Virus record (IMG/VR): IMGVR_UViG_3300025769_000204 | Span: 1 to 47,794 of that record | Strand: one strand, 5' to 3' | DNA length: 47,794 bases | Origin: a virus | Part shown: positions 2,725-34,482 of the stretch, piece by piece | Layout of the letters: every line of letters begins with the position of its first letter | Numbering within the stretch: position 1 is the stretch's first letter | The notes under the pieces: model-generated | Database searches by the model: none | What the model was told of the DNA's origin: nothing | What the model saw: the letters and a program-made list of their open reading frames with translations, nothing else | Position numbers and translations under genes: made by a program

Positions 2725-5436
2725 ATGGAACGCAAACAAGCAGTCTATAAAGGTTTAGAATTTATTCCAGTTTTATATGAAGATGATTCATTAACATCTC
2801 CAGACTATTTTCAGATATCCGAATTTCCATTACGACTTACTGCTGGTAAAAATCTTTTTAAACTTCGAGGTCATCCTACTAATTTACGAGTTGGTGGTGC
2901 ACTAGGAATTGAAGTATTAGATTATAACGGTGATCCTATATATACTGAAGTAGTAGATTATATTGACGAAGATAAAAGTCGTGTTATAGCAATTTATATA
3001 TATGAAGACACATCACCTGGAGATTGTACTATTACCTTAGTAGCTGAAGCTACAACAATCGAAAATAATCCAGTGCCGATTGATTGGCAAGGCAAAGTAA
3101 ATTTAAGATGGAAGCGCACAGTACCTGTAAACCCAATGGTAGCAAACGTTTCTGAAATAATATTTGATAAATTACCCGTAGTAACAGTTCAAGAACAAAT
3201 TGGAGTTCAATTAGATCGACAATATGCTACAACCCAATTTCCTACTTATAACACCGGGACTGTTCGTTTCTTTTCACAAAACGGACAACCAGCTATTGAA
3301 TTAACCGGCGGAGAATTTGAATCTGATATGAAAACTGGAACTATTACTGTTTCGTCGCCTACAAATCCTACGCCTACACCTGCGTATCCGATTGTTAGCA
3401 CACCTTATGTGTCTACAATTAAAAAGATATTAACTCCAACTACTGCATTGTTAGATCAAGACTATACGGTGTATAGTAGCGAAAGTATATTTCCACACAC
3501 ATACAATGAATTTGAAAATAGTTCATATTCGTTATCATATGAATCTACTCCAGTATATATAGAAACTGAAAACTCACAATCATTTGCATATATACAAATA
3601 GAAGGATTAGAACCAGCTACTGGTGATGTTAGTCGAACTAAGGTTTATACTAATAATAAAGGAACAGTTGGCACATGGGAATTAGTTAATGATGTAGAAT
3701 TAGAAGAAACAGAAATATTTGTACCTAGCACATCATCATTATTACCAGACGTTAGCATTGGAACATTTGTAACACAGAGCACTATTGATACATATTGGGA
3801 AGCACATTCATATCAAGGAAAATCAGAAGGCACTGCTCCAACATTAACATGGACTACTGAATCATTAGATCGAGCTACATTAATAGATAGTTCTATAGAC
3901 ATAACTGCAAATAATAGCGTATTAACATTTCAAAATAAAGATGCATATAAAGGTGTATTTATTGCTACGAGTTCATATAAAGTAACATTAGATGCATTAG
4001 GAACTCGTAGCAGTGTTAGTAGTAACAATGATCCGGTAATTAGTATTTATATATCCGGAAGTGCATTTGATTATGATACTACAGATTTATTTAATCAAGA
4101 TTTACCAAAAACATTAGGAAAACGAATTGGTGAGCTTCGTGTTACTGGAGACTCTCAAAGATTTGATGACGAAACATTTAGTTTTGAAACTAATAGTGCA
4201 GGCCATGGAAGTATAATATTAGTAGTAGAAAGTGGAATTTGGCAAGTTGCTGATATTCGAACTACAACAGACAATGATGCAGGATATACTCCAAATTATA
4301 CCAGGATAAAAACATTTGTAGAAACTACACATAAAATAGACAATCAAATATCTTTTAAAGTAGAATATTACAATGTAGACGGTGTAGCTAGTAAACAAAT
4401 AACATATGTATATGATAAGAATTGGGAAGGCGGAAATCGTTATGTAGACGGTGATTTTTCAATGCTTACTGGATCTTTATATGTAGCAGATTCATTAAAT
4501 AGTGGTGTAGCTATAACTGGTAATAGTGGTACGGGATTTGTTAGATCATTGGGATATGATGGGTTTGAATCTGGATATCCCGGATTTTTATTGTGGAGTG
4601 GATCTGCACTACCTGGTTTTAATACTAAAGGCGGAGTTCCATATAGTGGTGTAGGATTAGAATTATATTTAGATAATAATAGTTATTTTAGATATTCTAC
4701 TACAGATGATGAAATATATATAGCAACACAAAATTTCTTTTTAGGAGATCCAAATACTGCGTTTATAAGTGGTAGTGATAGCAACATAGAAATATCTGCA
4801 AGTGGATTTCATTTAACACCAGAAGGAGATGTTACTGCATCTAGCTTTATCGCTCAGCAAGGAGGAAACACATTATTTGATAGTAACAATGAATTTGTAG
4901 ATGGAAAAAATATAGGCCGAGTAGTTTATTTTGATAGAGATGAATTTACACATACCGGAAATATTGGAACAAGTGGAGGAACTCCAGTAACGGCATCGGT
5001 ATTTGAAACGTTTATACTACCTGGAGAAACAAGAATGCAATTATCATGTATGCTTGAATTTAGGAACTCAGCTGGGTCAAATAAAAGTTTACAAACAGCT
5101 GTATATATACAATCTGCTAGCTATACATCATCAATATCAGATGATACTGCAGATCATTACGATTCTTGGAGTAATTCTACTTTATTAAGTACTACAACAT
5201 TATTATCAGTGATTGGAGCTGGAGATACCGGATCGACTGGTCGTACTACTGAACTCGTTACGGGAAATAATTTAGATAATTTTCAAGGTACATTTGTTAA
5301 AGTTTTTTTAATAGTACAACATCCAGGCGCAGGACACCTAGATTCATTATTAAAAATGAAAAATTTTGTATTTAGAACAAGTAGAACAGTTGGTGGAGCA
5401 ACAACGCCACCTTTAGCACCACTACCACCAGGATAA
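2725..5436 (+). CDS. Large tail-fibre-like structural protein
   Basis: A 903-residue protein rich in Ser, Thr, Gly and Asn, with the composition and beta-rich repetitive look of phage fibres or baseplate-attached adhesins. About residues 1-130 look like a compact head domain. A Thr/Pro linker (PTNPTPTPAYP) follows near residue 215. Around residues 690-720 the phrase GFHLTPEGDVTASSF resembles the repeat style of phage fibre shafts, and the protein ends in a Pro-rich tail (PPLAPLPPG). It has no Shine-Dalgarno sequence; the ATG was chosen because it follows the promoter-like motif by 18 nt. It sits between recombination and nucleotidyltransferase genes, away from the main adhesin cassette at 24-31 kb. 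Exact role and receptor are unknown. Confidence 0.6.
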   Translation: MERKQAVYKGLEFIPVLYEDDSLTSPDYFQISEFPLRLTAGKNLFKLRGHPTNLRVGGALGIEVLDYNGDPIYTEVVDYIDEDKSRVIAIYIYEDTSPGDCTITLVAEATTIENNPVPIDWQGKVNLRWKRTVPVNPMVANVSEIIFDKLPVVTVQEQIGVQLDRQYATTQFPTYNTGTVRFFSQNGQPAIELTGGEFESDMKTGTITVSSPTNPTPTPAYPIVSTPYVSTIKKILTPTTALLDQDYTVYSSESIFPHTYNEFENSSYSLSYESTPVYIETENSQSFAYIQIEGLEPATGDVSRTKVYTNNKGTVGTWELVNDVELEETEIFVPSTSSLLPDVSIGTFVTQSTIDTYWEAHSYQGKSEGTAPTLTWTTESLDRATLIDSSIDITANNSVLTFQNKDAYKGVFIATSSYKVTLDALGTRSSVSSNNDPVISIYISGSAFDYDTTDLFNQDLPKTLGKRIGELRVTGDSQRFDDETFSFETNSAGHGSIILVVESGIWQVADIRTTTDNDAGYTPNYTRIKTFVETTHKIDNQISFKVEYYNVDGVASKQITYVYDKNWEGGNRYVDGDFSMLTGSLYVADSLNSGVAITGNSGTGFVRSLGYDGFESGYPGFLLWSGSALPGFNTKGGVPYSGVGLELYLDNNSYFRYSTTDDEIYIATQNFFLGDPNTAFISGSDSNIEISASGFHLTPEGDVTASSFIAQQGGNTLFDSNNEFVDGKNIGRVVYFDRDEFTHTGNIGTSGGTPVTASVFETFILPGETRMQLSCMLEFRNSAGSNKSLQTAVYIQSASYTSSISDDTADHYDSWSNSTLLSTTTLLSVIGAGDTGSTGRTTELVTGNNLDNFQGTFVKVFLIVQHPGAGHLDSLLKMKNFVFRTSRTVGGATTPPLAPLPPG

Positions 5437-5460: not shown

Positions 5461-7923
5461 ATGAATAAAACTACAGTACTTTTTCCAGGCGGGTTTAAAC
5501 CATTAACAGGTGCCCATTTAACATTAGCACAACGCTATGCAAATTCTTCCAATGTAGAACGAGTAATAATGCTCATCGGTCCAAAAGAACGAGATGGGGT
5601 AAGTCGTCAAGACAGCGAAGAAATATTTCGATTAATTAACACTAATCCTAAAATAGAAATACGTCCTACAGACTTTAACAGTCCAATAATGGCTGCGTAT
5701 GAATTTTTATTTGCACTGCCAGAAGATGATATGGGAACATATGCAATGGCTGCATCTAAAAAAGGAGATGATTACGCTAGGACATTGAGTTTTGCAGGAA
5801 ACGTAGAAAAATATAAAACTGTCGGAGACAAAAAAGGCAGAAAAATCCCGGCCGGCGTAGAAGTGAATCCATTAGAGATAGATGTTGAACCATTAACATA
5901 TAGTAACGGCGATCCTATTTCAGCCAGCACTATACGACAAGCAATTGCTAATAATGACTATGAAACATTTGCAGCATCATATCCTGGAACAAAAGAAGCC
6001 GTTCTTAAAAATATATGGCAAATGCTAACCGGAGTGCAGGAGTCAATATTTAGCAAATCGTGGTGGGGCAATCAATTAGCAGAAGATATAGACGAAGTAG
6101 CAGAAGGATATCAAACTCCTAAATTAGCTCGAGCTCACGATAAAAAAATAAAAAAACTAAGAAAACATTTAGATCGAAGTCGCGGAGAAGAATTTGTATA
6201 TGATTTTGCTAATTTTGGTAAAACTGTGTTTGGTGCACCATTATATGAAAATTATATTACGCGTGACGAATTAAAATCTATAGAACCAACCGTAGACAGA
6301 TTCTTTAAGCGTTACGGTATTGATGTAGACTTTCAAGGATATGCAACGCATTTTATGGACCGATTAAATGATCCTAGAAATGAAGGAACAATTACACTTG
6401 ACGATTTAGAAAATTTATTTTTAGATTTATCATCAGAGTATGGCGAAGAAATAGTCCAACAAGTAATGAGAGGCAATCCATCAGCAGTAACATCAGACTA
6501 TCAATTTGACGTTCCCATTCATATGCCATTTCAATTACATTTTGATCAGAGTTTAGGACAAATAAAATTGATTCCTAGAACAGTTAAATCACAACGACGT
6601 CCATGGAGATCAAATAATCCGTCTGATAAAATATATACAATAGAAAATGTATTAACAGAAGGCGGCGCAGCAGGACATATGAATCATCCTTATGACTCTC
6701 ATGGATTAACTTTCAATGACATGAAAGAAATAGTATCCAGAGCATTAGAAGGACGACTTGACATGGAAGAAGCCGTTACTGAAAAGACAGACGGACAGAA
6801 CATTCAAGTAACTTGGAAAAACGGACAACCAGGTTTTGCTAGGGGAATAAAAACTAGAAAAGATCCATTAACACCTGCAGAAATTGTTGCTGAATTTGAA
6901 GCAAAATATCAAAAGTCAGTTGAAGCTAATGGAGTTAAAGGGGCAGAAGGATATAAATTAGTAGTAGACGCATTTCGTGCAACAGCAGAAGATTTAACGG
7001 CATCTTTAAGCAAATTATCTAAAGAGACACTTATGCGTATATTTAAAAACGGTAAAGTGTTTGCAAACATGGAAATTATATATCCTGCTACTACCAATGT
7101 TATTGCTTATGAGCAAGCAGTGCTTCAATTTCATAATCTAGTTGAATATGACGAAAATGGAAAAGTAGTAGAAACAGATGTAACTGGTGGCACTATGCTT
7201 CAACAAGTAATACAAGATGCTAATGCACATATGCAAAAGACATTTTCATTTATTCCGCCTAACAAATTAAAATTGGGTCGTATAGAAGATTTTGAAGATC
7301 AACAAGCAGCATTCTTTGCTGAAATAGATAGTTTAAAAAATCAATTTGGTCTTAAAGAAACTGATCGTGTATCTGAATATCACAGAGCATGGTGGAAAGA
7401 CGTCGTACGAGAAAAAGCATATCAATTAGATTATGCTATACCACAAGATGTATTAGAAATACTAACTAACCGTTGGGCATTCAATGATAAGTCTACAAGA
7501 ATAAATAACGTAGTTAAAATGATAGACAATGAATCTTTTTCTGCATGGGTTTCGGCCTTTGATAAAAAAGATTTTAAAGCATACCAAAAACAAAATATAG
7601 AACCTTTTGAATCTATATTTTTAAAACTTGGTGCGGTAGTGTTAAAAAACATAAAAAACTATTTAGCAGTTAGTCCAGATAAAGCAGTTCGTCAAATTAA
7701 AAAAGACTTGATGTCATTGATTAAAGACTTACAAACATCAGATAATCCTGACACACTTAAAAAATTAGAAACACAATTAAAAAAAATAGAACGAATAGGT
7801 GGCTTTGATACTATAGTACCAATTGAAGGTATTGTATTTACATATGGTGGTAACACATATAAGCTAACAGGTTCATTTGCTCCAGTAAATCAGATACTAG
7901 GAGTGTTAAAATACGCAAGGTAA
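5461..7923 (+). CDS. NMN/cytidylyltransferase-like domain fused to KxDG ligase-like nucleotidyltransferase
   Basis: Two nucleotide-transfer domains lie in one 820-residue chain. Residues about 1-190 are an HxGH-type nucleotidyltransferase (NMN adenylyl- or cytidylyltransferase fold): GGFKPLTGAH at 10-19 supplies the T/HxGH motif and ISASTIR at 153-159 the ISxTxxR motif. Residues about 200-400 are a helical, charged region I do not recognise. From about 410 there is a covalent nucleotidyltransferase of the DNA/RNA ligase superfamily: motif I K442-TDG, a motif III-like NMEIIYP around E538, motif IV EGIVF at 789-793 and a motif V-like YKLTG with K801. K442 is the predicted adenylylated lysine. 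The start is fixed because the GGFKP strand needs this Met. Substrates cannot be read from sequence: NAD salvage plus nucleic-acid sealing is one possibility, RNA-end repair another. Confidence 0.75.
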   Translation: MNKTTVLFPGGFKPLTGAHLTLAQRYANSSNVERVIMLIGPKERDGVSRQDSEEIFRLINTNPKIEIRPTDFNSPIMAAYEFLFALPEDDMGTYAMAASKKGDDYARTLSFAGNVEKYKTVGDKKGRKIPAGVEVNPLEIDVEPLTYSNGDPISASTIRQAIANNDYETFAASYPGTKEAVLKNIWQMLTGVQESIFSKSWWGNQLAEDIDEVAEGYQTPKLARAHDKKIKKLRKHLDRSRGEEFVYDFANFGKTVFGAPLYENYITRDELKSIEPTVDRFFKRYGIDVDFQGYATHFMDRLNDPRNEGTITLDDLENLFLDLSSEYGEEIVQQVMRGNPSAVTSDYQFDVPIHMPFQLHFDQSLGQIKLIPRTVKSQRRPWRSNNPSDKIYTIENVLTEGGAAGHMNHPYDSHGLTFNDMKEIVSRALEGRLDMEEAVTEKTDGQNIQVTWKNGQPGFARGIKTRKDPLTPAEIVAEFEAKYQKSVEANGVKGAEGYKLVVDAFRATAEDLTASLSKLSKETLMRIFKNGKVFANMEIIYPATTNVIAYEQAVLQFHNLVEYDENGKVVETDVTGGTMLQQVIQDANAHMQKTFSFIPPNKLKLGRIEDFEDQQAAFFAEIDSLKNQFGLKETDRVSEYHRAWWKDVVREKAYQLDYAIPQDVLEILTNRWAFNDKSTRINNVVKMIDNESFSAWVSAFDKKDFKAYQKQNIEPFESIFLKLGAVVLKNIKNYLAVSPDKAVRQIKKDLMSLIKDLQTSDNPDTLKKLETQLKKIERIGGFDTIVPIEGIVFTYGGNTYKLTGSFAPVNQILGVLKYAR

Positions 7924-22296: not shown

Positions 22297-22818
22297 ATGG
22301 CACTGTTTGGAGGACAACGAGATGCTAAATTTTTAGCCGCTATCAATTCAGAACTGATCAATGCAGTAATAGACACTGAAATTGAATTTTATAAATTATT
22401 AGTAGAATCATCAGATTCAAATTTATATGGAGAATCAGAAAGCAAATCATATTATGATTCTATACTTATTCCTTGTGTAATTACTAAAGACGAAAAAAAT
22501 TCTAATATGGATGATTATGGTCATACATATACTAGAACAGGTAAATTTGCAATATCTAGAGATATATTAGTACGAGCAGACTTTTATCCTGAAGTTGGAG
22601 ATATATTGCTTTGGGACAATGAATATTTTGAAGTAGACAATGTAGATGCTAATCAGTATTTCATAGGAAAAAATCCAGAAACGTGGCCAAATGGAGATCA
22701 ACATGGTTATAGTGTGTCAGTGATGGTAGATGCTCATGTAACAAGACAAACACCACAAGGTATTAAAGATATAAGAAACGGAGGAAATAATAATTCTCCT
22801 GCATATAAAGGACATTAA
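22297..22818 (+). CDS. 14: Neck protein (gp14)
   Basis: The partner of gp13 in the neck, needed to attach tails to filled heads. It is 173 residues; T4 gp14 is 256, so this is the short marine form. Recognisable segments are MALFGGQRDAKFLAAINSEL, YYDSILIPCVI and RDILVRADFYPEVGDILLWD, then DNEYFEVDNV. The start is fixed by the AGGAGG site. Its stop overlaps the next start codon by one base (TAATG). Confidence 0.85.
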   Translation: MALFGGQRDAKFLAAINSELINAVIDTEIEFYKLLVESSDSNLYGESESKSYYDSILIPCVITKDEKNSNMDDYGHTYTRTGKFAISRDILVRADFYPEVGDILLWDNEYFEVDNVDANQYFIGKNPETWPNGDQHGYSVSVMVDAHVTRQTPQGIKDIRNGGNNNSPAYKGH

Positions 22819-24041
22819 TGCCAAGATATAACAGAAAAAATATCGATCGTAAAACAAATAAACCTAATCCTAAAAAAACGGAAGGTTTAAACAATGATCC
22901 AGTATTAAATCGAGCTGAACAAGTACGGCGTGATGATGATGTTATACGCACGGTTAAACGTACGGTATATGATATTGACTATGCAATAAAATGGTATATA
23001 GAAAATGAAATACAACCTCAAATAACCGCAAATAAAAATTTAATAGACGTTCCTGTAATATTTTCAAATGGTGAAAAATGGGACAATGTACGTCGTTTAG
23101 GTTATCTTCGTGACGAAAAGGGAATGTTACAATCTCCTCTAATAATGCTTAAACGTAATTCAATGCAAGAACGAGACAACACCCGAACACTTGACGTTAA
23201 TAGACCACAAGCAGGAAATCATATAATTTATCGTAGTAAATATAATAATAGAAATAGATATGAAGATGAATTATTTCCTATACCAACTAATGAGCCACAA
23301 CAATCTAAAAAAATATATGTAGTAGATGTTCCAAAATATGTTAATATAGAATATGACATGATGCTTTGGTGTGATTTTACTACGCAAATGAATGATCTAG
23401 TAGATCAAATAATGCCATATGGTAGATTTGCATGGGGAAATGAATCGAATAAATTTGCTACAGCAATGGGTAGTGTTAGTTTCGAGACTGTTAATACAGT
23501 AGGCGAAGACAGATTAGTTAGAGCAACTATTCCTTTAACAGTTATGGGAACACTGCTTTCAGAACAAGAAACAAGAAAGTCTACATTGAAAAAAATGTAT
23601 TCAGTAAAAAAAGTTGTTTTCCAAACAGTTATTGATTTAGATAACAATATATTTGAAACAACAAAAATACCAACTCAATTATTAGCAGCATCTCAAACTA
23701 TTGCAGGCGGAGGTAGTGTAATAGTAAATGGTGGTGGGACTAGTGCAACAGTTGATAGTAACTCAATGGCATACTTAATAGGTCTTGTAGATAAAACTGC
23801 AACATATGTTTCTGCCACAACAGTAAACGTAACAGGAACTCCTAAAATTAATCCAAGCACATTAGCTTATGCATCTGTCAATGAATTTGATGTATATGTA
23901 AACGGACAATACATAGACAAAGCAGCATATACATGGACGCCAGATGAAAACACAACACAAACAATAGTATTCGATACTGGCACATTAGGCTATGATATCT
24001 TGAATACTGACACTGTTATTGTTAATGGGAGATGGGCATAA
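22818..24041 (+). CDS. 15: Tail completion / sheath terminator protein (gp15-like)
   Basis: A probable gp15, the hexamer that caps the tail tube and sheath and binds the neck. It is 407 residues against 272 in T4. The core (about 65-265) has the gp15 layout: an N-terminal NLIDVPVIFSNGEKW strand, a PLIMLKRNS segment, VNIEYDMMLWCDFTTQMNDL, then QIMPYGRFAWG and RATIPLTVMG. About 140 extra C-terminal residues are Thr/Val-rich with a beta-sandwich look (NEFDVYVNGQYIDK) and may decorate the neck. Gene order after gp13 and gp14 supports the call. Confidence 0.75.
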   Translation: MPRYNRKNIDRKTNKPNPKKTEGLNNDPVLNRAEQVRRDDDVIRTVKRTVYDIDYAIKWYIENEIQPQITANKNLIDVPVIFSNGEKWDNVRRLGYLRDEKGMLQSPLIMLKRNSMQERDNTRTLDVNRPQAGNHIIYRSKYNNRNRYEDELFPIPTNEPQQSKKIYVVDVPKYVNIEYDMMLWCDFTTQMNDLVDQIMPYGRFAWGNESNKFATAMGSVSFETVNTVGEDRLVRATIPLTVMGTLLSEQETRKSTLKKMYSVKKVVFQTVIDLDNNIFETTKIPTQLLAASQTIAGGGSVIVNGGGTSATVDSNSMAYLIGLVDKTATYVSATTVNVTGTPKINPSTLAYASVNEFDVYVNGQYIDKAAYTWTPDENTTQTIVFDTGTLGYDILNTDTVIVNGRWA

Positions 24042-26764
24042 TGGCAAGACAAATAAGACCAGGACAACTTCAAGAAAATGTATTATATAATATATCTGCG
24101 AGTTTTGCTATATCAGCATCTCATGAAATTACACATGAAGTCTCTTCTAGTTATGCAGAAACAGCAAGTTTTGCTAATTTTGCTGCAACGTCTTCATATG
24201 TAATTAACACAAATATACCAGAAAAATTACATTTACAAGTCAGAAATGATGATGTTGTAACAATACCGGCTGGCACTCCTATATACTCAACAGGTGAAAT
24301 AGGAGGAAGTGAACGAATTAAAGTAAGAATAGCATCTGCTAGTAGTGCTGATAAAATGCCTTCTATCGGTATTGCTGAAACTGATTTAACTACCACCGGT
24401 AATACTAAAGATGGGTTTGCTATTATAAACGGAATTTATAATACCAACGTAACTCCAATATCAGGTACGCCTGCTATAGGAGATAATATTTATATTCATG
24501 AAAATAGTGGATTGACTACAATTAAACCGTCTGGATCTAACTTAATTCAAAACATAGGTACTGTATTAAAAACTAATGGTACTATAATACAAGGAATGAA
24601 AGTTTCTTCAATTGACAGATCAAATGATGTACCTAATCTGTTAACAGGAAATGTATTTTATGGTGTAGGAGATCAAGCAACACAATCGCCTTTAAGTGAT
24701 ATCATTAGCGGCAGTTTATTTTTATATAGCGGTTCATTTAGTGGTAGCTATGAAGGAGATGGATCGCAGTTATCAGGAATATCAACAACACCATTTCCAT
24801 TTACAGGAGACGCAGTTATAACCGGATCATTAGTTGTATCTGGCAGTGGCACGCAAGGAGGATTAAGAACTAATACTAGAAATATAATATTAGGACAAGG
24901 CGCCGGCCATGATCAAAATGCAACTAACGGTCCTTATAATGTAATGATCGGTTATCAGGCAGGGTATACTAATACAACGGGTGACTCCAATGTTTGTATA
25001 GGACAGAATGCTGGATATGCTTTAAGCACAAATGCGTCAGATGACAACATTTTTATAGGTAAATTAGCTGGAGCAGGAGGAACATCCCCTGCAGCTAGAA
25101 TGAGTGACGCTAATTATAATATTGCTTTGGGCTATGAGACTATGTTATATCTTACTAGTGGAGATAGTAATATTGGTTTTGGATTCCGAACAATGCGAAA
25201 CATATCATCAGGTAAATACAATCTAGCATATGGCGATGGAGCTCTATACAATACCGATACAGGTCAAAATAATATTGGTATAGGAAGAAGTGCAGGAGCT
25301 GAGCAAACAGCTGGAACTGGTAACATAACAATTGGTTCTGGTAGTTTAGGTGTAGCTGGTGAATCTAATCAACTTAGAATTGGTAACGGAAACACAATAA
25401 CCACAATATCAGCTTCATTAGAAACCGGAGACATAATTTTTGCTAGCACAGCAAGTGCAGAATATCTATCTACACCTGCAGGTAATTTATCTCCAATTTC
25501 CGCTTCATATGCTTTAACAGCTTCCCATGCACTTAATGCCGGCGGTACTACACCAACATTACAAGAAGTAACAGATCAAGGTGCTAGCACTTCAAATGAT
25601 ATTACAATTTCTGGAGATTTAACTGCCAGTGCAGATATATCATTGCCAACTAATGCCTCATCTATAAAATTTAATAGTGCTGAATTGCATGGTAGAGTAG
25701 GTGGATCATACCCAGGTCTTACAATTAATAGTGGTGTTTCTAGTGGTGATAGGATTTGGTTAAGAGATGCTCAAGGAGCAACAGGCCCAGTTACAATGAG
25801 TTTTATTGGGTTAGGTAAAATTGATGGCGTACAAAGTATTGAAGGTCAAGGAAATAGGCCATTAATTCTCCGGGGTGGAGCAGGTCCAAACGATGCTAAT
25901 GATGGTATACAAATGTTTACTGGAGATGCCTCTAATGTATATCAACAAAGGTTTCAAATCGAAGCAGATGGTACTAATGTAGATGCATATTTTCACAACA
26001 TAAACGGATTAGGTATTAATGACACTACTCCGACTGCTATGTTAGATGTGAATGGAAATATTAATGCTGCAACAGATATTACGGCTTCCGGAGACATACA
26101 TGCAATTGGTAATATATCAGCTTCAACTTTTATAGGGGATGGTACAAATGTAACAGGAGTAGTATCTGCTTCATATGCTATAACTGCTTCACACGCATTA
26201 AATAGTAGCGGAGGTGGAACACCAACCTTTATAGCATCTGGATCAACATCAGCCTCAGCAGCACCGAATACCGGAGTAGTTGTAGAACATAGTGGATCAA
26301 CCGCATTTAGTGTAATCGGAGATGTAGGAACACTGTTCTCCGTAGATGATGATTTAACCGGAACATTGTTTTCCGCAAATGACATATCGGGCTTCCCGGT
26401 ACTACAAGCAGATGCAACCGGCGAAGTGTATCTAGGAAAATCTCCGCAATCATTGTATACCACAGCAGTTATAAGTTCTAATACAGCAAATATAACACAA
26501 TCGATATACGGAATAAGCACAAGCTCATATGCAGGAGCATTTATAGAATACACTGCTTTTTCTGGATCACACGACGCTCGAGCAGGTAGCTTGATGGCTA
26601 TATGGAGCGGTAGTGCAGTAAATTTCACAGAAACAACTACTACTGATTTTGGCAACACTTCTAACTTATTGATGCAAGTAGCAATATCGCAGAGTCAAGC
26701 ACAAGTGCAATCATATTCAACTACTGCGGGATATAAAATCAAAACCATAATAAAAGCAATATAA
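24041..26764 (+). CDS. Long tail-fibre protein with YadA-like head repeats
   Basis: A fibre-type adhesin of about 907 residues. The frame opens at 24032, but the ATG at 24041 overlaps the previous stop in the TAATG pattern used throughout this cluster and has GGAG upstream, so I start it there. Residues about 10-60 are SxSYAxTAS-type coiled repeats. About 280-470 carry repeated G-x-N-x-x-I/N-G-x-G/Q-A-G units (NNIGIGRSAGAEQ and NVCIGQNAGYALS are examples), like the left-handed beta-roll heads of trimeric autotransporters. Further SASYAITASHALN repeats follow. Near the C-terminus is a VGTLFSVDD...NDISG module shared with the protein at 28160. No intramolecular chaperone domain is seen at the end. 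Confidence 0.72.
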   Translation: MARQIRPGQLQENVLYNISASFAISASHEITHEVSSSYAETASFANFAATSSYVINTNIPEKLHLQVRNDDVVTIPAGTPIYSTGEIGGSERIKVRIASASSADKMPSIGIAETDLTTTGNTKDGFAIINGIYNTNVTPISGTPAIGDNIYIHENSGLTTIKPSGSNLIQNIGTVLKTNGTIIQGMKVSSIDRSNDVPNLLTGNVFYGVGDQATQSPLSDIISGSLFLYSGSFSGSYEGDGSQLSGISTTPFPFTGDAVITGSLVVSGSGTQGGLRTNTRNIILGQGAGHDQNATNGPYNVMIGYQAGYTNTTGDSNVCIGQNAGYALSTNASDDNIFIGKLAGAGGTSPAARMSDANYNIALGYETMLYLTSGDSNIGFGFRTMRNISSGKYNLAYGDGALYNTDTGQNNIGIGRSAGAEQTAGTGNITIGSGSLGVAGESNQLRIGNGNTITTISASLETGDIIFASTASAEYLSTPAGNLSPISASYALTASHALNAGGTTPTLQEVTDQGASTSNDITISGDLTASADISLPTNASSIKFNSAELHGRVGGSYPGLTINSGVSSGDRIWLRDAQGATGPVTMSFIGLGKIDGVQSIEGQGNRPLILRGGAGPNDANDGIQMFTGDASNVYQQRFQIEADGTNVDAYFHNINGLGINDTTPTAMLDVNGNINAATDITASGDIHAIGNISASTFIGDGTNVTGVVSASYAITASHALNSSGGGTPTFIASGSTSASAAPNTGVVVEHSGSTAFSVIGDVGTLFSVDDDLTGTLFSANDISGFPVLQADATGEVYLGKSPQSLYTTAVISSNTANITQSIYGISTSSYAGAFIEYTAFSGSHDARAGSLMAIWSGSAVNFTETTTTDFGNTSNLLMQVAISQSQAQVQSYSTTAGYKIKTIIKAI
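26287..26440 (+). repeat. Fibre module copy 1
   Basis: Encodes a roughly 50-residue module (FSVIGDVGTLFSVDD, then NDISGFPVL) that recurs twice in the separate gene at 28160. The DNA is clearly related but diverged. Confidence 0.65.
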
Positions 26765-27456
26765 TGGGTATAAGGAGAGGTTCTATATCAACCCCAATAA
26801 TAGTAGACGGGCTGATGATTAATCATGATGCAGCTAATAGAGCAAGCTATATTCCTGACGCTACTACAACATATAATACAATTGACTTATCCAAAACAGG
26901 AACTTTTATAAACTCACCCACATTTGTAAGCTCTACACCCTCATGGGATTTCGATGGAACAGATACATCTATTAATTGTAGTGATTATGAAATGGACGGA
27001 TTCACCGGATTTGCTGTTGAAGCTTGGTTCAAATCAGATTCAACAAACAATCAAAGTAGAAGAATAGTCTCAAAAGATCAAGTAGGAGTTCCAGGTGCAT
27101 GGATATTATGGACTAATTCATCAGATTTGAAATTTCAGGCATATGATGGAGGATGGGTAACTGCTACATATTCAGCTTACTCAGAAGACAGCAATTGGCA
27201 TCATGTAATAGCCAACGCCGGCGGTGGCAGAATTGACCTTTATTTAGATGGTGTAAACGTTGCATTTGCTTCCGGATTCGGATCACTCGATGATGCCGAT
27301 AACGAAGTAATAGCAATAGGAGCAGATAGTGATACTTCTTCTCCAGAGCATGTATGGTACGGCCAAATTGCAAACGTAAGAGTATATAATAGAGGATTAG
27401 AAGAAAGCGAAATATTACACAACTACACCGCACTTAAAGGGAGATTTGGATTATGA
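26764..27456 (+). CDS. LamG-like lectin protein 1
   Basis: A 230-residue concanavalin A/LamG-type jelly-roll, a fold typically used for glycan binding. The signature is in order: an N-terminal TPIIVDGLMINHDAANRASY, then WDFDGTDTSINC, VEAWFKSD, the NWHHVIAN strand, IDLYLDGV, and a C-terminal VRVYNRGLEESEILHNYTAL. It is the first of five paralogues, separated from the fibre gene by a TAATG overlap. It is probably a virion adhesin carried by or near the fibre; the ligand is unknown. Confidence 0.8.
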   Translation: MGIRRGSISTPIIVDGLMINHDAANRASYIPDATTTYNTIDLSKTGTFINSPTFVSSTPSWDFDGTDTSINCSDYEMDGFTGFAVEAWFKSDSTNNQSRRIVSKDQVGVPGAWILWTNSSDLKFQAYDGGWVTATYSAYSEDSNWHHVIANAGGGRIDLYLDGVNVAFASGFGSLDDADNEVIAIGADSDTSSPEHVWYGQIANVRVYNRGLEESEILHNYTALKGRFGL

Positions 27457-28121
27457 ATTTTGGTAGTATACGGACTCCTATTATAACTGATGGATTGGTA
27501 TTCAATATGGATGCTGCCAATAGAGCTTGTTATCCTAGAACTGGTACTACTGCCACAGATACTATAGAAAATACTTCTGGCATCTTAAATGGTACTACTT
27601 TTGAAAATATTAATAGTGGAGTATTTAATTTTGATGGAATAGATGATAAAATTACTATTGAAGGTCTATCAGACTTTGGCGGTGGTAGTTTAACTATTTC
27701 ATTTTGGATTAAATCAGGTATTGATGCAAATAATGCCTATGTATTAATGAGAAGTGGTTTTTCATTTTATATATTTCAATCTGGCACCTCGTCAAATTTA
27801 AAATATAGAATCCAAACATCTGCTTTAAATACTATTAGTGGTGGTGCAATACTTGATAATAATTGGCATTATTGCGTAATGACGTTTGATAGTGCAGCAA
27901 ATAAATTTAAAGTTTTTGAAGATAGCACTCAGGTTGGTTCTACTGCAACAACATCTGGTGCTTTAGCAAGTAGTACATCAACTGTTTATTTAGCAACTTT
28001 TGCTAATGGCGCACCTTTTAAGAGTGGGTTTATCCCAAATATTCATATCTACAACCGCGCCTTATCAGCATCAGAAGTCCTACACAACTACAACGCATTA
28101 AAATCGAGGTTTGGCCTTTAA
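27453..28121 (+). CDS. LamG-like lectin protein 2
   Basis: A 222-residue paralogue of its upstream neighbour. It keeps TPIITDGLVFNMDAANRACY, FNFDGIDDKITI, LTISFWIKSG, NNWHYCVMTFD, FKVFEDSTQVG and the ending IYNRALSASEVLHNYNALK. It overlaps the preceding gene by 4 nt (ATGA). The middle strands differ strongly from copy 1, which is where ligand contacts would lie in this fold. Confidence 0.8.
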   Translation: MNFGSIRTPIITDGLVFNMDAANRACYPRTGTTATDTIENTSGILNGTTFENINSGVFNFDGIDDKITIEGLSDFGGGSLTISFWIKSGIDANNAYVLMRSGFSFYIFQSGTSSNLKYRIQTSALNTISGGAILDNNWHYCVMTFDSAANKFKVFEDSTQVGSTATTSGALASSTSTVYLATFANGAPFKSGFIPNIHIYNRALSASEVLHNYNALKSRFGL

Positions 28122-28122
28122 C

Positions 28123-28131
28123 ATATTTATA
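28123..28131 (+). promoter_or_regulatory. ATATTTATA late-promoter-like motif
   Basis: An exact ATATTTATA followed by TAAAAG, 28 nt before the ATG at 28160. It splits the adhesin cassette into separate units. Confidence 0.6.
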
Positions 28132-28159
28132 TAAAAGCAATCTTGGATAGGGAAAAGAT

Positions 28160-29095
28160 ATGGCAAATGAATTCATAATAAAAAATGGCTTTCATTCGAA
28201 AGGCGATTCACAAATAACAGGATCATTCACCGCAACCGGCGGTATGTCAGGATCATTCAGTGGATCATTTGAGGGAAACGCATCCTCATTGAGTGTAATT
28301 AATTCCGGATCAACCATATTTGATGTACAAGGTAGTGTAGGACAGTTATTTGAAGTTGCAGACGGATTAGACGGCGTATTAATGTCAGTCAACGACATAT
28401 CAGGTATTCCTATATTAACTGTATCTTCATCAGGTGATGTGTTTTTAGCAGCTGGATCAATCCTACAGGGTACTGCAGCAACTGCATCATTTGTGCCAGG
28501 TGTAACTGCAGCATTTCCATTTACCGGTTCAGGCGCAATATCAGGCTCATTGAATATCAACGGGTCTGGCTCTGGTATATTTGACGTCGACGGAACGGTA
28601 GGATCATTATTTTCTGTTAATGACGGACTAGATGGTATATTGATGTCTGTAAATGATATATCCGGACTACCATTATTTGAAGTATCGTCGTCTGGAAACA
28701 TAGAAATACACGAAGGTAATATATCCGGTTCATCAACATCAACAGCATCATTTGGAACATATGTAGGTGACGGTTCACAATTAACTAATCTGCAAAGACC
28801 AATAACAGCATCTGGAGTTAATTTTTCAGCTAGCATTGATAATGCCGGATATTATTTTAGAACCGGAGGAAATGTAACATGTTCTATAGGAACAACATCA
28901 GCAACAGGCATTGTCATTGGAACAGAATATGAATTTTTTCAAACAGCTTCTGCAGGAAATTTGTGTTTTGCAACTTCTAGTGGTGTTACATTAAATTCTA
29001 AATCAGGTAATATAAAATTAACAGGACAATTTTCAGCAGCTACACTTAAAAAAGTAGCAACTGATACTTATGATTTAATTGGTGATTTAAGTTAA
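28160..29095 (+). CDS. Short fibre protein with duplicated module
   Basis: A 311-residue Ser/Gly-rich fibre protein. After a short N-terminus (MANEFIIKNGFHSKGDSQIT) come SGSFSGSF-type repeats, then two tandem copies of a roughly 50-residue module (VGQLFEVADGLDGVLMSVND and VGSLFSVNDGLDGILMSVND) separated by a FPFTGSGAISGSL linker. The C-terminal third (from about 215) differs and may form a beta-rich tip domain. The same module occurs once in the long fibre at 24041. The cassette position suggests the two proteins assemble together or exchange parts. Confidence 0.7.
   Translation: MANEFIIKNGFHSKGDSQITGSFTATGGMSGSFSGSFEGNASSLSVINSGSTIFDVQGSVGQLFEVADGLDGVLMSVNDISGIPILTVSSSGDVFLAAGSILQGTAATASFVPGVTAAFPFTGSGAISGSLNINGSGSGIFDVDGTVGSLFSVNDGLDGILMSVNDISGLPLFEVSSSGNIEIHEGNISGSSTSTASFGTYVGDGSQLTNLQRPITASGVNFSASIDNAGYYFRTGGNVTCSIGTTSATGIVIGTEYEFFQTASAGNLCFATSSGVTLNSKSGNIKLTGQFSAATLKKVATDTYDLIGDLS
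28301..28711 (+). repeat. Fibre module copies 2 and 3 (tandem)
   Basis: Two diverged direct repeats (about 28301-28450 and 28559-28711) encode the VGxLFxVxDGLDGxLMSVNDISG module. They are likely substrates for recombination with copy 1 near 26.3 kb. Confidence 0.7.
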
Positions 29096-29098
29096 AGT

Positions 29099-29107
29099 AT
29101 ATTTATA
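29099..29107 (+). promoter_or_regulatory. ATATTTATA late-promoter-like motif
   Basis: An exact ATATTTATA followed by TAAAAAG, 15 nt before the ATG of the third LamG gene. Confidence 0.62.
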
Positions 29108-29122
29108 TAAAAAGAAACACAG

Positions 29123-29839
29123 ATGGCATTTCATCATTCACCGAGAATAGTATCAGAAGGATTAATTTTTTGCATGGATCCTGCGAATACGACAGGATAT
29201 GTATCAGGTAGTACGTCCGGAACTGATTTGATACAAGATACATCATATTCGCTTGTTTCTGCAGTTGAGTATCAATCAAACAATGCAGGTGTATGGAATT
29301 TTGGGGGAGTAGATGATTATATCAATGTTAATCCATTAACAAGTGGTATCACCGGAGATAATGCAACTACAATGGCAGCATGGGTATTGAGTACTAATAC
29401 CACGTTACGACAAGCAGTATTTAATTATGGTACTACGAGTTTTAATCAAACACGTGGTTTAGAAGTAGGTACCCCAGCATATGGAACAAGATATAATATT
29501 TCTTTTCATACATGGGGGCATGTATATAGTTCAAATAATAACGCATTTACAGAAAACGAATGGCATTATTGTGTCATAACATATGCTGGGGGAGGAACAA
29601 ATTCCACAAACATAAAACTTTATATCGACGGTACTGATGCTGGATATGTATTAGATCATGGGTCAGAAAACCAAACTCTCAATGCTACAAATAACAATAT
29701 AAGATTAGGAATGAGAAATGGTTCATATACTGATTTAGATCTTGCAGGTCAAGTAGGACCAGTACAAATGTATAACCGAGTATTAACGCCAGCAGAAGTA
29801 ATGCAAAACTATAACGCAATGAAAGTGAGGTTTGAATAA
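29123..29839 (+). CDS. LamG-like lectin protein 3
   Basis: A 238-residue LamG/concanavalin A-like protein. The signature is PRIVSEGLIFCMDPANTTGY, WNFGGVDDYINV, MAAWVLSTN, NEWHYCVITYAGGG, IKLYIDGTDAGY and the ending MYNRVLTPAEVMQNYNAMK. It starts a second run of three overlapping paralogues under its own promoter-like motif. Its stop overlaps the next start (TAATG). Confidence 0.8.
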   Translation: MAFHHSPRIVSEGLIFCMDPANTTGYVSGSTSGTDLIQDTSYSLVSAVEYQSNNAGVWNFGGVDDYINVNPLTSGITGDNATTMAAWVLSTNTTLRQAVFNYGTTSFNQTRGLEVGTPAYGTRYNISFHTWGHVYSSNNNAFTENEWHYCVITYAGGGTNSTNIKLYIDGTDAGYVLDHGSENQTLNATNNNIRLGMRNGSYTDLDLAGQVGPVQMYNRVLTPAEVMQNYNAMKVRFE

Positions 29840-30567
29840 TGGCAACTAATTATGGAACACTTCCTATAGTATCAGAAGGACTCATATGGAGAGTTGATGC
29901 TTCTAACAACCCTAAAAATTTAAATGTAAATGGCGCTAATAGTGTAATAGGAAACACTGCTACTATAGGATTTTCTGGATCATTGCAAGGTGGAATGTCA
30001 AGAGTTACATCTGAACCACAATACTGGGAGTTTGATGGAGACGATGATTATATACAATTTGCAGCGAATAGTACTATCAATGAAAGTAACGTGTTATCAT
30101 TATATGGTAAAACAACAGCAACATTTGAATTTTGGATAGCACCAGATTATGCAGGTGATTCATATCAAAGAATATTAGCCAAATCAAATGCCGGTGGTGG
30201 TGGTGTAGGAGGATATTCATTATTGTTAGAATCTAAACAGTTCTTGTTGTATATAGATAATGGTACTGGTACTCCAGTCAGTACTGCAGATTATATCACA
30301 TCAGCTAACGCCGGTGAATGGCTTCATATAGTAATAACTAGAAATGATACTTCATATGTTATGTATGAAAATGGTGTAGTAAAAGATACAAATACAGCTT
30401 CTGCAACATTTGTTAACACTTCAGCTGGGTTACGAATAGGATCATGGAATCATAGTACCGGAAGAGAATATAACGGTAAATTAGCGGTAGCAGCTATATA
30501 CAATGTAACATTAACTGCTGAACAAGTACTTCAAAATTATAACGCTTTAAAATGGAGATTTGAATAA
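29839..30567 (+). CDS. LamG-like lectin protein 4
   Basis: A 242-residue paralogue: LPIVSEGLIWRVDASNNPK, WEFDGDDDYIQF, ATFEFWIAPD, GEWLHIVITRND, YVMYENGVVKD and the ending IYNVTLTAEQVLQNYNALK. It is the member closest to generic phage and bacterial LamG domains. It contains an extra loop around residues 85-125 compared with copies 1 and 2. It joins the next gene by a TAATG overlap. Confidence 0.8.
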   Translation: MATNYGTLPIVSEGLIWRVDASNNPKNLNVNGANSVIGNTATIGFSGSLQGGMSRVTSEPQYWEFDGDDDYIQFAANSTINESNVLSLYGKTTATFEFWIAPDYAGDSYQRILAKSNAGGGGVGGYSLLLESKQFLLYIDNGTGTPVSTADYITSANAGEWLHIVITRNDTSYVMYENGVVKDTNTASATFVNTSAGLRIGSWNHSTGREYNGKLAVAAIYNVTLTAEQVLQNYNALKWRFE

Positions 30568-31259
30568 TGGCAGTATTTGGCGGACCAGATACGATAGTAA
30601 CAGATTCATTATTATTTATGATTGATCCAGCAAACCCGAAATCATATACATCAGGCTCTGCCACAATTACAGATATGATTGGTAATGTGTCTGCTGATAT
30701 TACGAATTGTGGATTCTCTGAGGAAAATTCTGGTGTGTTAACTTTTAACGGAACAGATACAGATATTGACATGGATGATTTTGATGGTTTAACAACAAAT
30801 GGCGGATCATCAATATCACTTTGGTTTAAAGGTACTGGACAAACTACTACGACAGATGCTTCTAATCAATTCTTTTCTGTACATGCAAGTGACTATTCAA
30901 ATATTTTAAGATTTGGAATTGCAAAAACCTCCGGTGGGATTTTTTATCGAGTTGGAAGTGGTACTGGTGTGATAGGAAGCAGCGATTATGATAACAGTGT
31001 TTGGTATAATATAACTCTTACCAAAGTTAAAGATAGTGCAGGAACTGTATATGTCAATGCATCATCTATAGGCTCTACGCCAAGTACTAATTTAACATTT
31101 GATGATGCTGTGCATTATTCCGTCGGTATGGAATATGACTCCGGACCTTCCAAAGGTGATTTTTTCAAAGGCCAAATATCATGTGTTCAAATTTATAACA
31201 AAGTTTTAACACAGGCAGAAGTTCTTCAAAACTACAATGCTCTTAAAGATAGATTTTAA
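30567..31259 (+). CDS. LamG-like lectin protein 5
   Basis: A 230-residue paralogue: TDSLLFMIDPANPKSY, LTFNGTDTDIDM, SISLWFKGTG, SVWYNITLTKVKD, VYVNASSIGS and the ending IYNKVLTQAEVLQNYNALK. It is the last of the five and lacks the usual Trp-His pair before the H-strand (WYN instead of WHH or WHY), a possible sign of altered ligand geometry. It is followed by a promoter-like motif for the next unit. Confidence 0.8.
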   Translation: MAVFGGPDTIVTDSLLFMIDPANPKSYTSGSATITDMIGNVSADITNCGFSEENSGVLTFNGTDTDIDMDDFDGLTTNGGSSISLWFKGTGQTTTTDASNQFFSVHASDYSNILRFGIAKTSGGIFYRVGSGTGVIGSSDYDNSVWYNITLTKVKDSAGTVYVNASSIGSTPSTNLTFDDAVHYSVGMEYDSGPSKGDFFKGQISCVQIYNKVLTQAEVLQNYNALKDRF

Positions 31260-31266
31260 TAACAAT

Positions 31267-31275
31267 ATATTTATA
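31267..31275 (+). promoter_or_regulatory. ATATTTATA late-promoter-like motif
   Basis: An exact ATATTTATA followed by TAAAAGGA, 14 nt before the ATG at 31290. Confidence 0.62.
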
Positions 31276-31289
31276 TAAAAGGAAATAAA

Positions 31290-31550
31290 ATGGATTATTC
31301 AAATAGAACATATGCCTTTGCTGATTGGGCAGATATAGGCTCGGTAGACTTTGCACAAGTAATGGAAACAAGTGCAGATACTGTGCGTAAATCAATAGAC
31401 GAAACCATGTTTATACTAAAATGGTATACGGCATCACAACCAACATTTATCACGGATAACAGTGTTACACTGCAATGGTCAGGATCACATTCACAATGCT
31501 TGCAACAATTGGTAGGACCAAATTGGACACCAACTGGTTCACAACCATAA
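31290..31550 (+). CDS. Unknown small tail-region protein
   Basis: An 86-residue protein of unknown function starting MDYSNRTYAFADWADIGSVD. The central DETMFILKWYTASQPTF and the ending VGPNWTP resemble small proteins found near tail and fibre genes of marine T4-like phages, so it is probably virion-associated. A GGA site and a promoter-like motif precede it. A different reading frame overlapping its end stays open well past its stop (see the following entry). Confidence 0.6.
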   Translation: MDYSNRTYAFADWADIGSVDFAQVMETSADTVRKSIDETMFILKWYTASQPTFITDNSVTLQWSGSHSQCLQQLVGPNWTPTGSQP

Positions 31551-31639
31551 ACATATTAAAAAAACAAGGAAACAATGTTCTTACTTTTACATATGGTTTA
31601 CCCTCATTTACATATACAGTAACATATACTACTAAATAA
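31496..31639 (+). CDS. Possible 47-residue overlapping or frameshifted ORF
   Basis: In another + frame an ATG at 31496 opens a 47-codon ORF that overlaps the end of the 31290 gene and runs to a stop at 31637-31639. Its second half reads INILKKQGNNVLTFTYGLPS and then FTYTVTYTTK: a hydrophobic/Thr alternation that looks like a genuine beta-hairpin and not a random frame. It fills an otherwise empty gap that ends just before the next promoter-like motif. It could be a small gene, a remnant, or an extension of the 31290 protein reached by a frameshift. Confidence 0.3.
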   Translation: MLATIGRTKLDTNWFTTINILKKQGNNVLTFTYGLPSFTYTVTYTTK

Positions 31640-31656
31640 TTTGGATAATGCAAAAT

Positions 31657-31665
31657 AAATTTATA
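31657..31665 (+). promoter_or_regulatory. Promoter-like motif, one mismatch
   Basis: AAATTTATA followed by TAATATAAAG, one base off the ATATTTATA consensus, 23 nt before the ATG at 31689. Confidence 0.45.
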
Positions 31666-31688
31666 TAATATAAAGAAAGGTTATAAAT

Positions 31689-31964
31689 ATGGCAACTAGA
31701 AAACTGGACAAAGAACATTTAGAACAAATTCAAACTCTACAACAGGGTTATGCAGACAACGCAAATATACTTGGAAACATTGCAATAGAGCGACACGCTT
31801 TACGAATGAGACTCGACCAAATTGAAGCAGAAGAGCAAAGCAAACTGCAAGAAATAGAATCTTTAAAACAGCAAGAATCAGAACTAATAGTTAAACTGCG
31901 AGAGCGTTACGGAGAAGGCGAAATCAACATTCAAGACGGAACATTCACAGAAGTTGATGTTTGA
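31689..31964 (+). CDS. Small coiled-coil protein upstream of gp18
   Basis: A 91-residue protein that is nearly all coiled coil (residues about 8-75, Glu/Gln/Leu heptads such as EEQSKLQEIESLKQQESELI), with a short beta-like tail (GEINIQDGTFTEVDV). There is no membrane segment. It lies between the adhesin cassette and the sheath gene. Function is unknown; a tail chaperone or small structural adaptor is possible. Confidence 0.65.
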   Translation: MATRKLDKEHLEQIQTLQQGYADNANILGNIAIERHALRMRLDQIEAEEQSKLQEIESLKQQESELIVKLRERYGEGEINIQDGTFTEVDV

Positions 31965-31976
31965 TACAAGTAGTAC

Positions 31977-31985
31977 ATATTTATA
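31977..31985 (+). promoter_or_regulatory. ATATTTATA motif for gp18
   Basis: An exact ATATTTATA, 25 nt before the sheath ATG, followed by a GGAG ribosome site. Confidence 0.62.
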
Positions 31986-32010
31986 AGAAAATAATTATAG
32001 GAGTATCATA

Positions 32011-34482
32011 ATGGCAGAAAGAATTGTCTCGCCCGGCGTATTTACGAATGAAGTAGATCAATCGTTTTTAGCAGGCGGAGTAGCACAGATAGGTGCAGCG
32101 GTAATAGGACCAACCGTAAAAGGTCCAGCTCTCATTCCTACACAAATAACATCGTTTGGTGATTTTGAAAAAACATTTGGATCGTTTACCGATGATTCAT
32201 ATGTTCCATTTGTAGTAAATGACTATTTAAGAAATGGAAACGTAATAACAGTAACACGTCTTTTATATGAAGATGGATATGAAATACCAAATGGCGCATT
32301 GGCCATACAGGCAGAATCTGGATCAGTAAAAATAGTAACTCATGTTCTTCATCCAACCCAAGCAGTATTAGGTGCCGGTAGTGTTGTGAATGCAAATTAT
32401 TTTGAAGACTCGGTTTTAAACAATGATTCATCTGGATCATTTGAAATTAAAATATCAGGATCATATGTAGCAGCTGCTAACCCAGCAATTGGATTTGATG
32501 GATCATTCCTAGTAGCAGAAGGATTATCTATATCTTCATCTATTAATAGCAGAAGCAATGATTATTTAACTAAATTATTCGGAAGGTCTCCTAAATCAGT
32601 AGATTATCCGGTATATGTTCAATATGAAAACGAAAATGCATTGCGCACATTGTTTAATAATATCGGTGATGTTTCAATATCACTTCATAAAATGGCAGAT
32701 TATGAATATCTTCAAGATTTTAAAACTGCAGCAACACCGTGGATAACCTCACAAAAAATTGGAAGCACTGCAAAAAATCTTATTAAGTTTCACACATTGT
32801 CTCATGGTAACTCTGTTAATGCAGAAGTTAAAGTAGGCGTACGCGACATAAGATTAGCATCTGAAGTATCTGATCCTAATGGATATGGTACATTTACAGT
32901 TGAAGTTCGCAGAGTGAATACTAATAATATACCAAATTCACCATATGCATCAGAAGACACAGATCAAACACCGGATATTGTTGAAACATTTTTAAATGTT
33001 AATCTAGATCCAAATTCGCCAAGATATGTATCCAGAGTGATTGGTGATCGTTATCAAACAGTTAGTGATGCTGGCGATGTTGTAGTAAATGGCGATTATC
33101 CAAATTTATCAGGATTTATACGAGTAGAAGTAACAGACGGTGTTAAAAATGCAACTAATGATAAAACATTGATTCCATTTGGAGCAAAAGCGCCATTGTC
33201 ACCTATAGCAAATGCATCTGCATCATTTAATTTAGAAGCAGTATCATACAAAACTACACAGATTGTTAATAGTTCATATAACAGCCGGGTATACTTTGGT
33301 TTTGATTATACCGACGTTGCTAACTTAAACTATTTAGCACCAACCCCAACTAGCGGTAGTACCGTTGGATTAAATACTGACTTTTATCTTGGTGATATGA
33401 ATCAAGATTCAGGTTCTTCATTCCCAACTGCAGCTGCAACATATAGTGGATCATTACAATCAGCATTAACTGCTGATACATTTACCACTAATATTGCATT
33501 GGCAACTAGAAAATTTATGGTTAGTTTTCAAGGAGGGTTTGATGGTGCACGACCAAATTTACCAAAATATAATGGTGCAAACATAGCATCAACAAACACA
33601 TTTGGTTTTGATTGTAGCACAGCAACAGCAACTGGTACTAAATCATATAATAAGGCATTTACATTGTTAGGTAACACTGATTATTATGATATGAACTTAT
33701 TAGTAACACCAGGTATTATTGACAGCTTACATAGCTCGGTCACAAATGGAGCGCGTAATTTAGTTCAAGATCGCCAAGACACATTCTATGTAATGGATTC
33801 AAATCCAGTGTCAGATAATATTGCCACAGTAACGAGTCAAGTAACAACACTAGACAACAATTACACTGCAACATATTGGCCATGGGTAAGAATACTTAAT
33901 CCAAATAAAAATGTTCCTTTATGGGTACCACCATCAGTTGTATTGCCAGGAGTATTAGCATTTAATGATGCCGTAAGTCAACCATGGTATGCACCAGCTG
34001 GTTTGAATAGAGGAGTTGTATCAGCAACTGATACATATGTAAGATTAACGCAATCTAACAGAGACACATTGTATGAAGCACGTGTTAATCCTATTGCAAA
34101 CTTCGTTAACGACGGAATATGCATATGGGGGCAAAAGACTCTACAAGCTAGACCAAGTGCATTAGACAGAGTCAATGTGCGACGTTTGCTTATCGCAGTT
34201 AAGAAGTTTATTGCATCATCTACCAGATATTTAGTATTTGAACAAAACACCAATCAGACTCGTGACAGATTCTTGAGCATTGTGAATCCTTATTTAGATC
34301 AAGTAAGAGCACAGCAAGGATTGTTTGCATTCCGAGCGGTAATGGATGACAGCAACAATACTCCAGACGTAATAGATCAAAATATTCTTTACGGACAATT
34401 GTTCTTGCAACCAACTAGAACCGCAGAATTTATAGTGTTAGACTTTAATATTCAGCCAACAGGAGCAAGTTTCCCAGAATAG
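32011..34482 (+). CDS. 18: Tail sheath protein (gp18)
   Basis: The contractile sheath subunit. It is 823 residues, longer than T4 gp18 (659); the extra length is in the protruding middle domains. The N-terminus ERIVSPGVFTNEVDQSF and GAAVIGPTVKGPALIP is diagnostic. The C-terminal domain is also typical: GICIWGQKTLQARPSALDRV, RRLLIAVKKFI, then YLDQVRAQQGLFAFRAVMDD and a closing FIVLDFNIQPTGASF. It has its own promoter-like motif, a GGAG site and a terminator, so it is expressed as an isolated unit. Confidence 0.96.
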   Translation: MAERIVSPGVFTNEVDQSFLAGGVAQIGAAVIGPTVKGPALIPTQITSFGDFEKTFGSFTDDSYVPFVVNDYLRNGNVITVTRLLYEDGYEIPNGALAIQAESGSVKIVTHVLHPTQAVLGAGSVVNANYFEDSVLNNDSSGSFEIKISGSYVAAANPAIGFDGSFLVAEGLSISSSINSRSNDYLTKLFGRSPKSVDYPVYVQYENENALRTLFNNIGDVSISLHKMADYEYLQDFKTAATPWITSQKIGSTAKNLIKFHTLSHGNSVNAEVKVGVRDIRLASEVSDPNGYGTFTVEVRRVNTNNIPNSPYASEDTDQTPDIVETFLNVNLDPNSPRYVSRVIGDRYQTVSDAGDVVVNGDYPNLSGFIRVEVTDGVKNATNDKTLIPFGAKAPLSPIANASASFNLEAVSYKTTQIVNSSYNSRVYFGFDYTDVANLNYLAPTPTSGSTVGLNTDFYLGDMNQDSGSSFPTAAATYSGSLQSALTADTFTTNIALATRKFMVSFQGGFDGARPNLPKYNGANIASTNTFGFDCSTATATGTKSYNKAFTLLGNTDYYDMNLLVTPGIIDSLHSSVTNGARNLVQDRQDTFYVMDSNPVSDNIATVTSQVTTLDNNYTATYWPWVRILNPNKNVPLWVPPSVVLPGVLAFNDAVSQPWYAPAGLNRGVVSATDTYVRLTQSNRDTLYEARVNPIANFVNDGICIWGQKTLQARPSALDRVNVRRLLIAVKKFIASSTRYLVFEQNTNQTRDRFLSIVNPYLDQVRAQQGLFAFRAVMDDSNNTPDVIDQNILYGQLFLQPTRTAEFIVLDFNIQPTGASFPE

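Follow-up and report, generated by a model that had tools for sequence, protein, structure and literature searches.

A putative exchangeable adhesin cassette with five stacked LamG-like proteins, two fibres and a small partner protein in a T4-like myovirus

The interval between the tail terminator and tail sheath genes of an aquatic T4-like myovirus contains two fibre genes, five genes for LamG-like proteins and a gene for an 86-residue protein, p86. We consider it probable, at roughly 60%, that this region is an exchangeable modular tail-fibre adhesin cassette, with p86 as the assembly partner. The DNA analysed, hereafter called the window, spans the whole of a virus record of 47,794 bases, which is probably a fragment of the phage genome. 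The features of the region are listed in Table 1.

Table 1. Features of the slot between the gp15-like and gp18-like genes (positions in the window)
Feature	Position	Strand	Evidence
gp15-like tail terminator	22818..24041	+	Profile match to T4 gp15 (4huh, E 6e-6); 100% identical in L091
Fibre protein, 910 aa	24032..26764	+	Matches PHROG families of virion structural and tail spike proteins
LamG protein 1, 230 aa	26764..27456	+	Laminin_G_3 E 8e-23; AlphaFold model; 85-89% identical copies in L170, L123, L121
LamG protein 2, 222 aa	27453..28121	+	Laminin_G_3 E 1e-18
Second fibre gene, 311 aa	28160..29095	+	Between LamG2 and LamG3
LamG protein 3, 238 aa	29123..29839	+	Laminin_G_3 E 8e-17; close relatives: none found except near-identical contig L006
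LamG protein 4, 242 aa	29839..30567	+	Laminin_G_3 E 4e-19; 75-79% identical copies in L017, L071
LamG protein 5, 230 aa	30567..31259	+	Laminin_G_3 E 1e-14; close relatives: none found except near-identical contig L006
p86, 86 aa	31290..31550	+	Adjoins LamG gene in 67/67 testable loci; AlphaFold pLDDT 93.7
Tail sheath (gp18-like)	32011..34482	+	PHROG tail sheath E 5e-65

Results

Homologues of gp13, gp15, gp18, gp19, gp23, the portal and the terminase were all found in the window, which identifies the source as a T4-like myovirus; besides the terminase, portal, gp23-like capsid, neck proteins and sheath, the window encodes PhoH and a tube protein. The LamG stack sits between the gp15 and gp18 homologues, with the gp13 and gp15 homologues upstream and the sheath gene downstream. 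As judged from sequence, the gp15-like gene is the conserved left border of a variable slot, and the gp18-like sheath gene is its conserved right border. The gene content between these borders varies among the relatives: the slot holds fibres and LamG genes here, while other relatives of the lineage have different fibres and no LamG gene. In cyanomyoviruses, the g15–g18 interval is a hyperplastic region, in which 4 to 14 genes are inserted (PMC2984593). A megablast search of the region against isolate phages returned no match. Elsewhere in the window, two large ORFs upstream of the terminase gene (2725-5436, 903 aa; 5461-7923, 820 aa) had no PHROG match at E 1e-5.

The original prediction described five tandem LamG-like proteins of 222–242 residues, linked by overlapping start and stop codons and interrupted by one fibre gene. 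All five ORFs are intact at the predicted positions, and the linkage is as described: one-base overlaps (TAATG) occur at 26764, 29839 and 30567, a four-base overlap (ATGA) occurs at 27453, and a single fibre gene interrupts the run. Each of the five is a single-domain Laminin_G_3 (PF13385) protein, with a score of 55–82 bits versus the curated Pfam cut-off of 27.6, and the assignment is therefore not due to chance. The full-length identity among the five proteins is about 24–34% (26–34% with the first copy); in sequence terms, the genes are not recent duplicates.

The AlphaFold model of copy 1, built from 95 aligned sequences, is a jelly roll (pLDDT 91.5, pTM 0.90), with low confidence at residues 1–5 and a C-terminal helix at residues 214–228. 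In the PDB, it is most similar to a carbohydrate-binding domain, domain 4 of the arabinanase AbnA (Z 22.0, rmsd 2.6, 194 residues), for which a structure with an arabinose oligosaccharide also exists, and many ConA-like domains match the model with Z 20–22. The concanavalin A-like fold, whose absence was to count against the original prediction, is thus present in the structure model, and the prediction stands on this point. The sequence profile matches of the LamG proteins also include sialidase lectin domains, pentraxins and laminin domains. Together with the AbnA match, they indicate that the modelled fold is that of a binding domain; the carbohydrate ligand is putative, as the fold alone is no proof of one. 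The clostridial neurotoxin binding domains, which are the top Foldseek matches of the LamG model, were set aside because they reflect only the common fold.

The same fold is common to several glycoside hydrolase families, and Foldseek finds many sialidase-associated domains, as would be expected if the LamG proteins were carbohydrate-cleaving enzymes (depolymerases). However, the matched AbnA and sialidase domains have binding or accessory rather than catalytic roles. Moreover, the central part of the LamG family has no nearly invariant acidic residue, which speaks against an enzymatic activity common to all members; most of the conserved positions are in the ends. We regard cleavage by these proteins as very improbable.

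Among 95 members of the LamG family, the mean column entropy is about 1.2–1.5 bits over most of residues 17–68, 2.5–3.5 bits over most of residues 69–198, and 0.9–1.0 bits over residues 209–228. The pattern of shared ends and a differing centre, first noticed among the five copies, therefore extends to the whole set, although the predicted start motif is less strict than proposed, as copy 5 has DSLLFMIDPAN. Because the Pfam Laminin_G_3 domain begins at about residue 61–66, it covers neither the conserved first 60 residues nor the end of the C-terminal helix.

Are the conserved ends maintained by the protein or by recombination? At the identical residues of low-identity LamG pairs from different phages, the codon identity is 0.537 in the first 30 residues, 0.529 in the middle and 0.548 in the last 26, against respective expectations from codon usage of 0.487, 0.498 and 0.568. 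The conserved ends are thus mainly due to protein constraint, and junction recombination was rejected as a general rule. Recent common N-terminal ends occur in only a minority of the pairs (at the synonymous sites of the first 30 codons, 15 pairs have z>3 and none is below -3). In addition, short DNA blocks with 85–91% identity are present at some LamG gene junctions between phages, and these blocks and the common synonymous sites indicate that some junctions have recombined between phages.

Comparisons with relatives revealed a mosaic exchange of the LamG genes. The closest complete comparison is contig 3300021373_001755 (L091), which matches the source phage with 100% identity in gp13, gp15 and a 173-aa gene, with 99% identity in p86, and with 92% identity in the compared part of the sheath. 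This contig has three LamG genes in place of five, only 27–41% identical to those of the source phage, and carries a 676-aa gene that is absent from the window. Conversely, L170 has a gene with 89% identity to LamG1, whereas its sheath and gp15 are only 43% and 31% identical, respectively. For 181 of the 206 stand-alone LamG genes in stacks, the nearest relative resides in another phage, and the stacks therefore seem to grow as single genes are imported, rather than through recent duplication. Recent tandem duplication was rejected, as the best identity within a gene's own stack has a median of 36%.

The number of LamG copies in the related loci ranges from 1 to 12, with 1 to 7 being common. 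Several loci are overlapping pieces of one contig, and retrieval with LamG or p86 as the query introduces a bias, so that the gp15- and sheath-retrieved counts are the least biased for LamG. Twelve LamG genes are present in L195 (12675 bases) and nine in L243, which is part of a 316-kb contig, while L256 (a 173-kb contig) has 11 LamG domains in several places. The differences in copy number and gene content among near-identical phages fit a host-recognition cassette. The original prediction is supported in part: the lectin-like fold of the putative adhesin set is confirmed, and host recognition is consistent with the comparison among relatives. Fused and stand-alone forms coexist, as LamG domains are fused into proteins of about 490–800 aa in L198, L189 and L214. 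In L197, an ORF at 649-1404, with a fibre gene on one side and a LamG gene on the other, resembles a GIY-YIG homing endonuclease by eye and is a possible exchange agent.

The original prediction also offered a second reading, a reservoir for switching host range. In such a scheme, only one or two copies would be used, and the rest would be kept within the genome, to be switched in by recombination or inversion. The 85–91% junction blocks and the 15 pairs with common synonymous sites are in its favour. In contrast, all five LamG ORFs have start codons and are open, and most are translationally coupled. The dN/dS values over whole genes in close pairs, available for LamG1, LamG4 and one pair from other phages only, are 0.20–0.32, and this range shows purifying selection in the sequences of the copies with close relatives; the low identity within stacks is likewise at odds with a reservoir. 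No inverted repeats of at least 20 nt exist in 24000-32000, and an invertible fibre switch of the Mu/P1 type was rejected, because inverted repeats flanking the fibre segments were not found. An RVT_1 reverse transcriptase, as in a diversity-generating retroelement, was found neither in the window, itself a fragment, nor in 13 related contigs. The silent reservoir is thus left without support, and we consider it improbable.

How are the LamG genes connected to the fibres? The 910-aa fibre ends in a C-terminal domain of ~150 aa, and in most cases this domain is followed by a LamG gene. Among the uncut fibre ORFs with this domain, a LamG gene is directly next in 38 of 47, or in about 36 of 45 when fragments of the window itself are left out. 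In two of the exceptions, the LamG gene is ~190 bp away, and in others a different gene occupies the place, such as an Lcl_C-like ORF (sub-threshold) in L133 or an arabinofuranosidase-like ORF in L230. Many LamG stacks (75 cases) begin after an unclassified gene. In L095, part of an 848-aa fibre matches the 311-aa fibre with 93% identity over 85% of the latter, and LamG genes are again directly next; the source phage appears to have two fibre–LamG units, the second begun by the 311-aa fibre gene. The start of this fibre, ANEFIIKNGF, is shared with the large fibres of L135 and L161, and it probably marks a second fibre type. With a putative adhesin gene directly after a fibre gene, the region resembles the gp37/gp38 type, a fibre with a separate tip adhesin, in arrangement only, and the fibre-to-LamG link is one of genomic adjacency, not a physical one.

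The original prediction was confined to the LamG stack, and missed both the fibre–LamG–p86 module order and the p86 partner. In the loci retrieved by gp15 or the sheath, p86 never occurs without LamG; both are present in 14, LamG only in 8 and neither in 138. Among the 79 p86-retrieved loci, a LamG gene lies within 150 bp in 63. The remaining 16 comprise 4 with a Laminin_G_3 ORF directly upstream and 12 with 403 or fewer bases upstream, so the pair is present in every testable locus. A scan of bacterial genomes for p86 yielded one match, on the contig of a Bacteroidetes MAG, where a LamG gene again directly precedes it. Usually one p86 accompanies a whole LamG stack, suggesting that it has the same role for every copy. 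Sequence searches with the p86 family found no relative in Pfam, PHROGs or the PDB, and a known chaperone was rejected on this basis. The structure searches were uninformative (Foldseek best PDB E 0.5; VIA-align Z of 4.5 or lower), and the viral proteins with significant matches are either unnamed or uncharacterised.

We also noted the motif ATATTTATA, which occurs 15 times in the window versus 3.3 expected, with no shuffle reaching 15. Its positions include 21041, 28123, 29099, 31267, 31977, 34540 and 35155, mostly about 20–35 bases upstream of start codons that come after an intergenic gap. The T4 late promoter core, TATAAATA, is present in the motif in reverse complement, and the motif may act as the lineage's late promoter. 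If so, it would divide the cassette into separate units.

Discussion

Assembly: In the proposed mechanism, the two fibres would be attached to the virion, and their C-terminal domains would carry or recruit the separately encoded LamG proteins. The first ~68 residues and the C-terminal helix of each LamG protein would form the assembly interface. As a shared chaperone or adaptor, p86 would fit any LamG protein to the virion, by aiding its folding or docking.

Recognition: The LamG proteins would serve as interchangeable tips for surface recognition, with the variable centre as the putative ligand-binding part that meets the host surface.

Ig-like domains on capsids have been proposed to provide weak general attachment, and the LamG proteins might similarly decorate the head or neck, for attachment to cells, mucus or particles. 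The PHROG family that matches best, phrog_8510, carries the label “head and packaging, virion structural protein”, so a capsid location would be possible, and the LamG genes come after the neck genes gp13–gp15. However, PHROG labels are loose for large fibre-like structural proteins, the 910-aa fibre being labelled likewise, and the tie to the fibre C-terminal domain points to the fibres. Thus, decoration of the head or neck seems unlikely. The LamG proteins might instead be non-virion proteins, exported or displayed on infected cells, that block superinfection, and nothing specific speaks for this. The genes lie among late structural genes, the homologues in Flavobacterium phage vB_FspM_immuto (NC_055915.1) are annotated “structural protein” in the same slot, and in cyanophages the LamG domain is fused to large structural proteins; we give this explanation hardly any credence. 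In the literature searched, no paper gave a proteomic basis for the annotation in immuto, and little was found on LamG in phages.

A more speculative and rather unlikely extension of the cassette reading makes p86 a general loading factor, by which a single fibre type could be fitted with any LamG protein. One genome would then give rise to particles whose tips are mixed, and the LamG proteins would form a combinatorial, bet-hedging set of adhesins, exchanged gene by gene among phages. Immuto and the Bacteroidetes MAG suggest, by analogy, that the host may be a member of the Bacteroidota.

For most uncultured aquatic phages, known receptor-binding proteins are missing. The module of the fibre C-terminal domain, the LamG stack and p86 would allow such genes to be found by sequence alone, and the p86 family would provide a new handle on how such adhesins are assembled. 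The region would represent a system in which host recognition is divided among many small, separately exchanged genes.

Comparison with known systems

The immuto phage has the same neck-to-sheath slot, in which a fibre gene is followed by LamG genes (gp051, gp050 and gp049) and a p86-like ORF (gp048). Unlike the source phage, it has two stand-alone LamG proteins and one longer one (458 aa), the proteins are only ~27–31% identical, the p86 relative is longer (112 aa), and several more genes precede the sheath. In Synechococcus phage S-SKS1 (SWZG_00005 and SWZG_00004), a LamG-bearing protein is likewise directly followed by a p86 homologue, but LamG lies within a 960-aa protein and adjoins baseplate and fibre genes, not the gp15–sheath interval. 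Synechococcus phage S-PM2 p176, a virion structural protein, has a C-terminal LamG domain with ~30% identity, whereas this domain is fused to a 1058-aa structural protein, with no stand-alone stack.

The cyanomyovirus g15–g18 hyperplastic region shares the position in the T4-like structural module and the variable gene content, but host-derived metabolic genes reside there, in contrast to the fibres and LamG adhesins here (PMC2984593). Pseudomonas phage pPa_SNUABM_DT01 belongs to a different phage group, and the comparison covers its LamG genes; it has five LamG-containing genes, for which receptor binding was proposed (PMC8541153). Finally, the Streptomyces umbrella particle is a bacterial antagonism particle and not a phage, and the likeness is one of description; one kind of particle is served by a diversified set of lectins, as may hold for the LamG cassette (PMC13274773).
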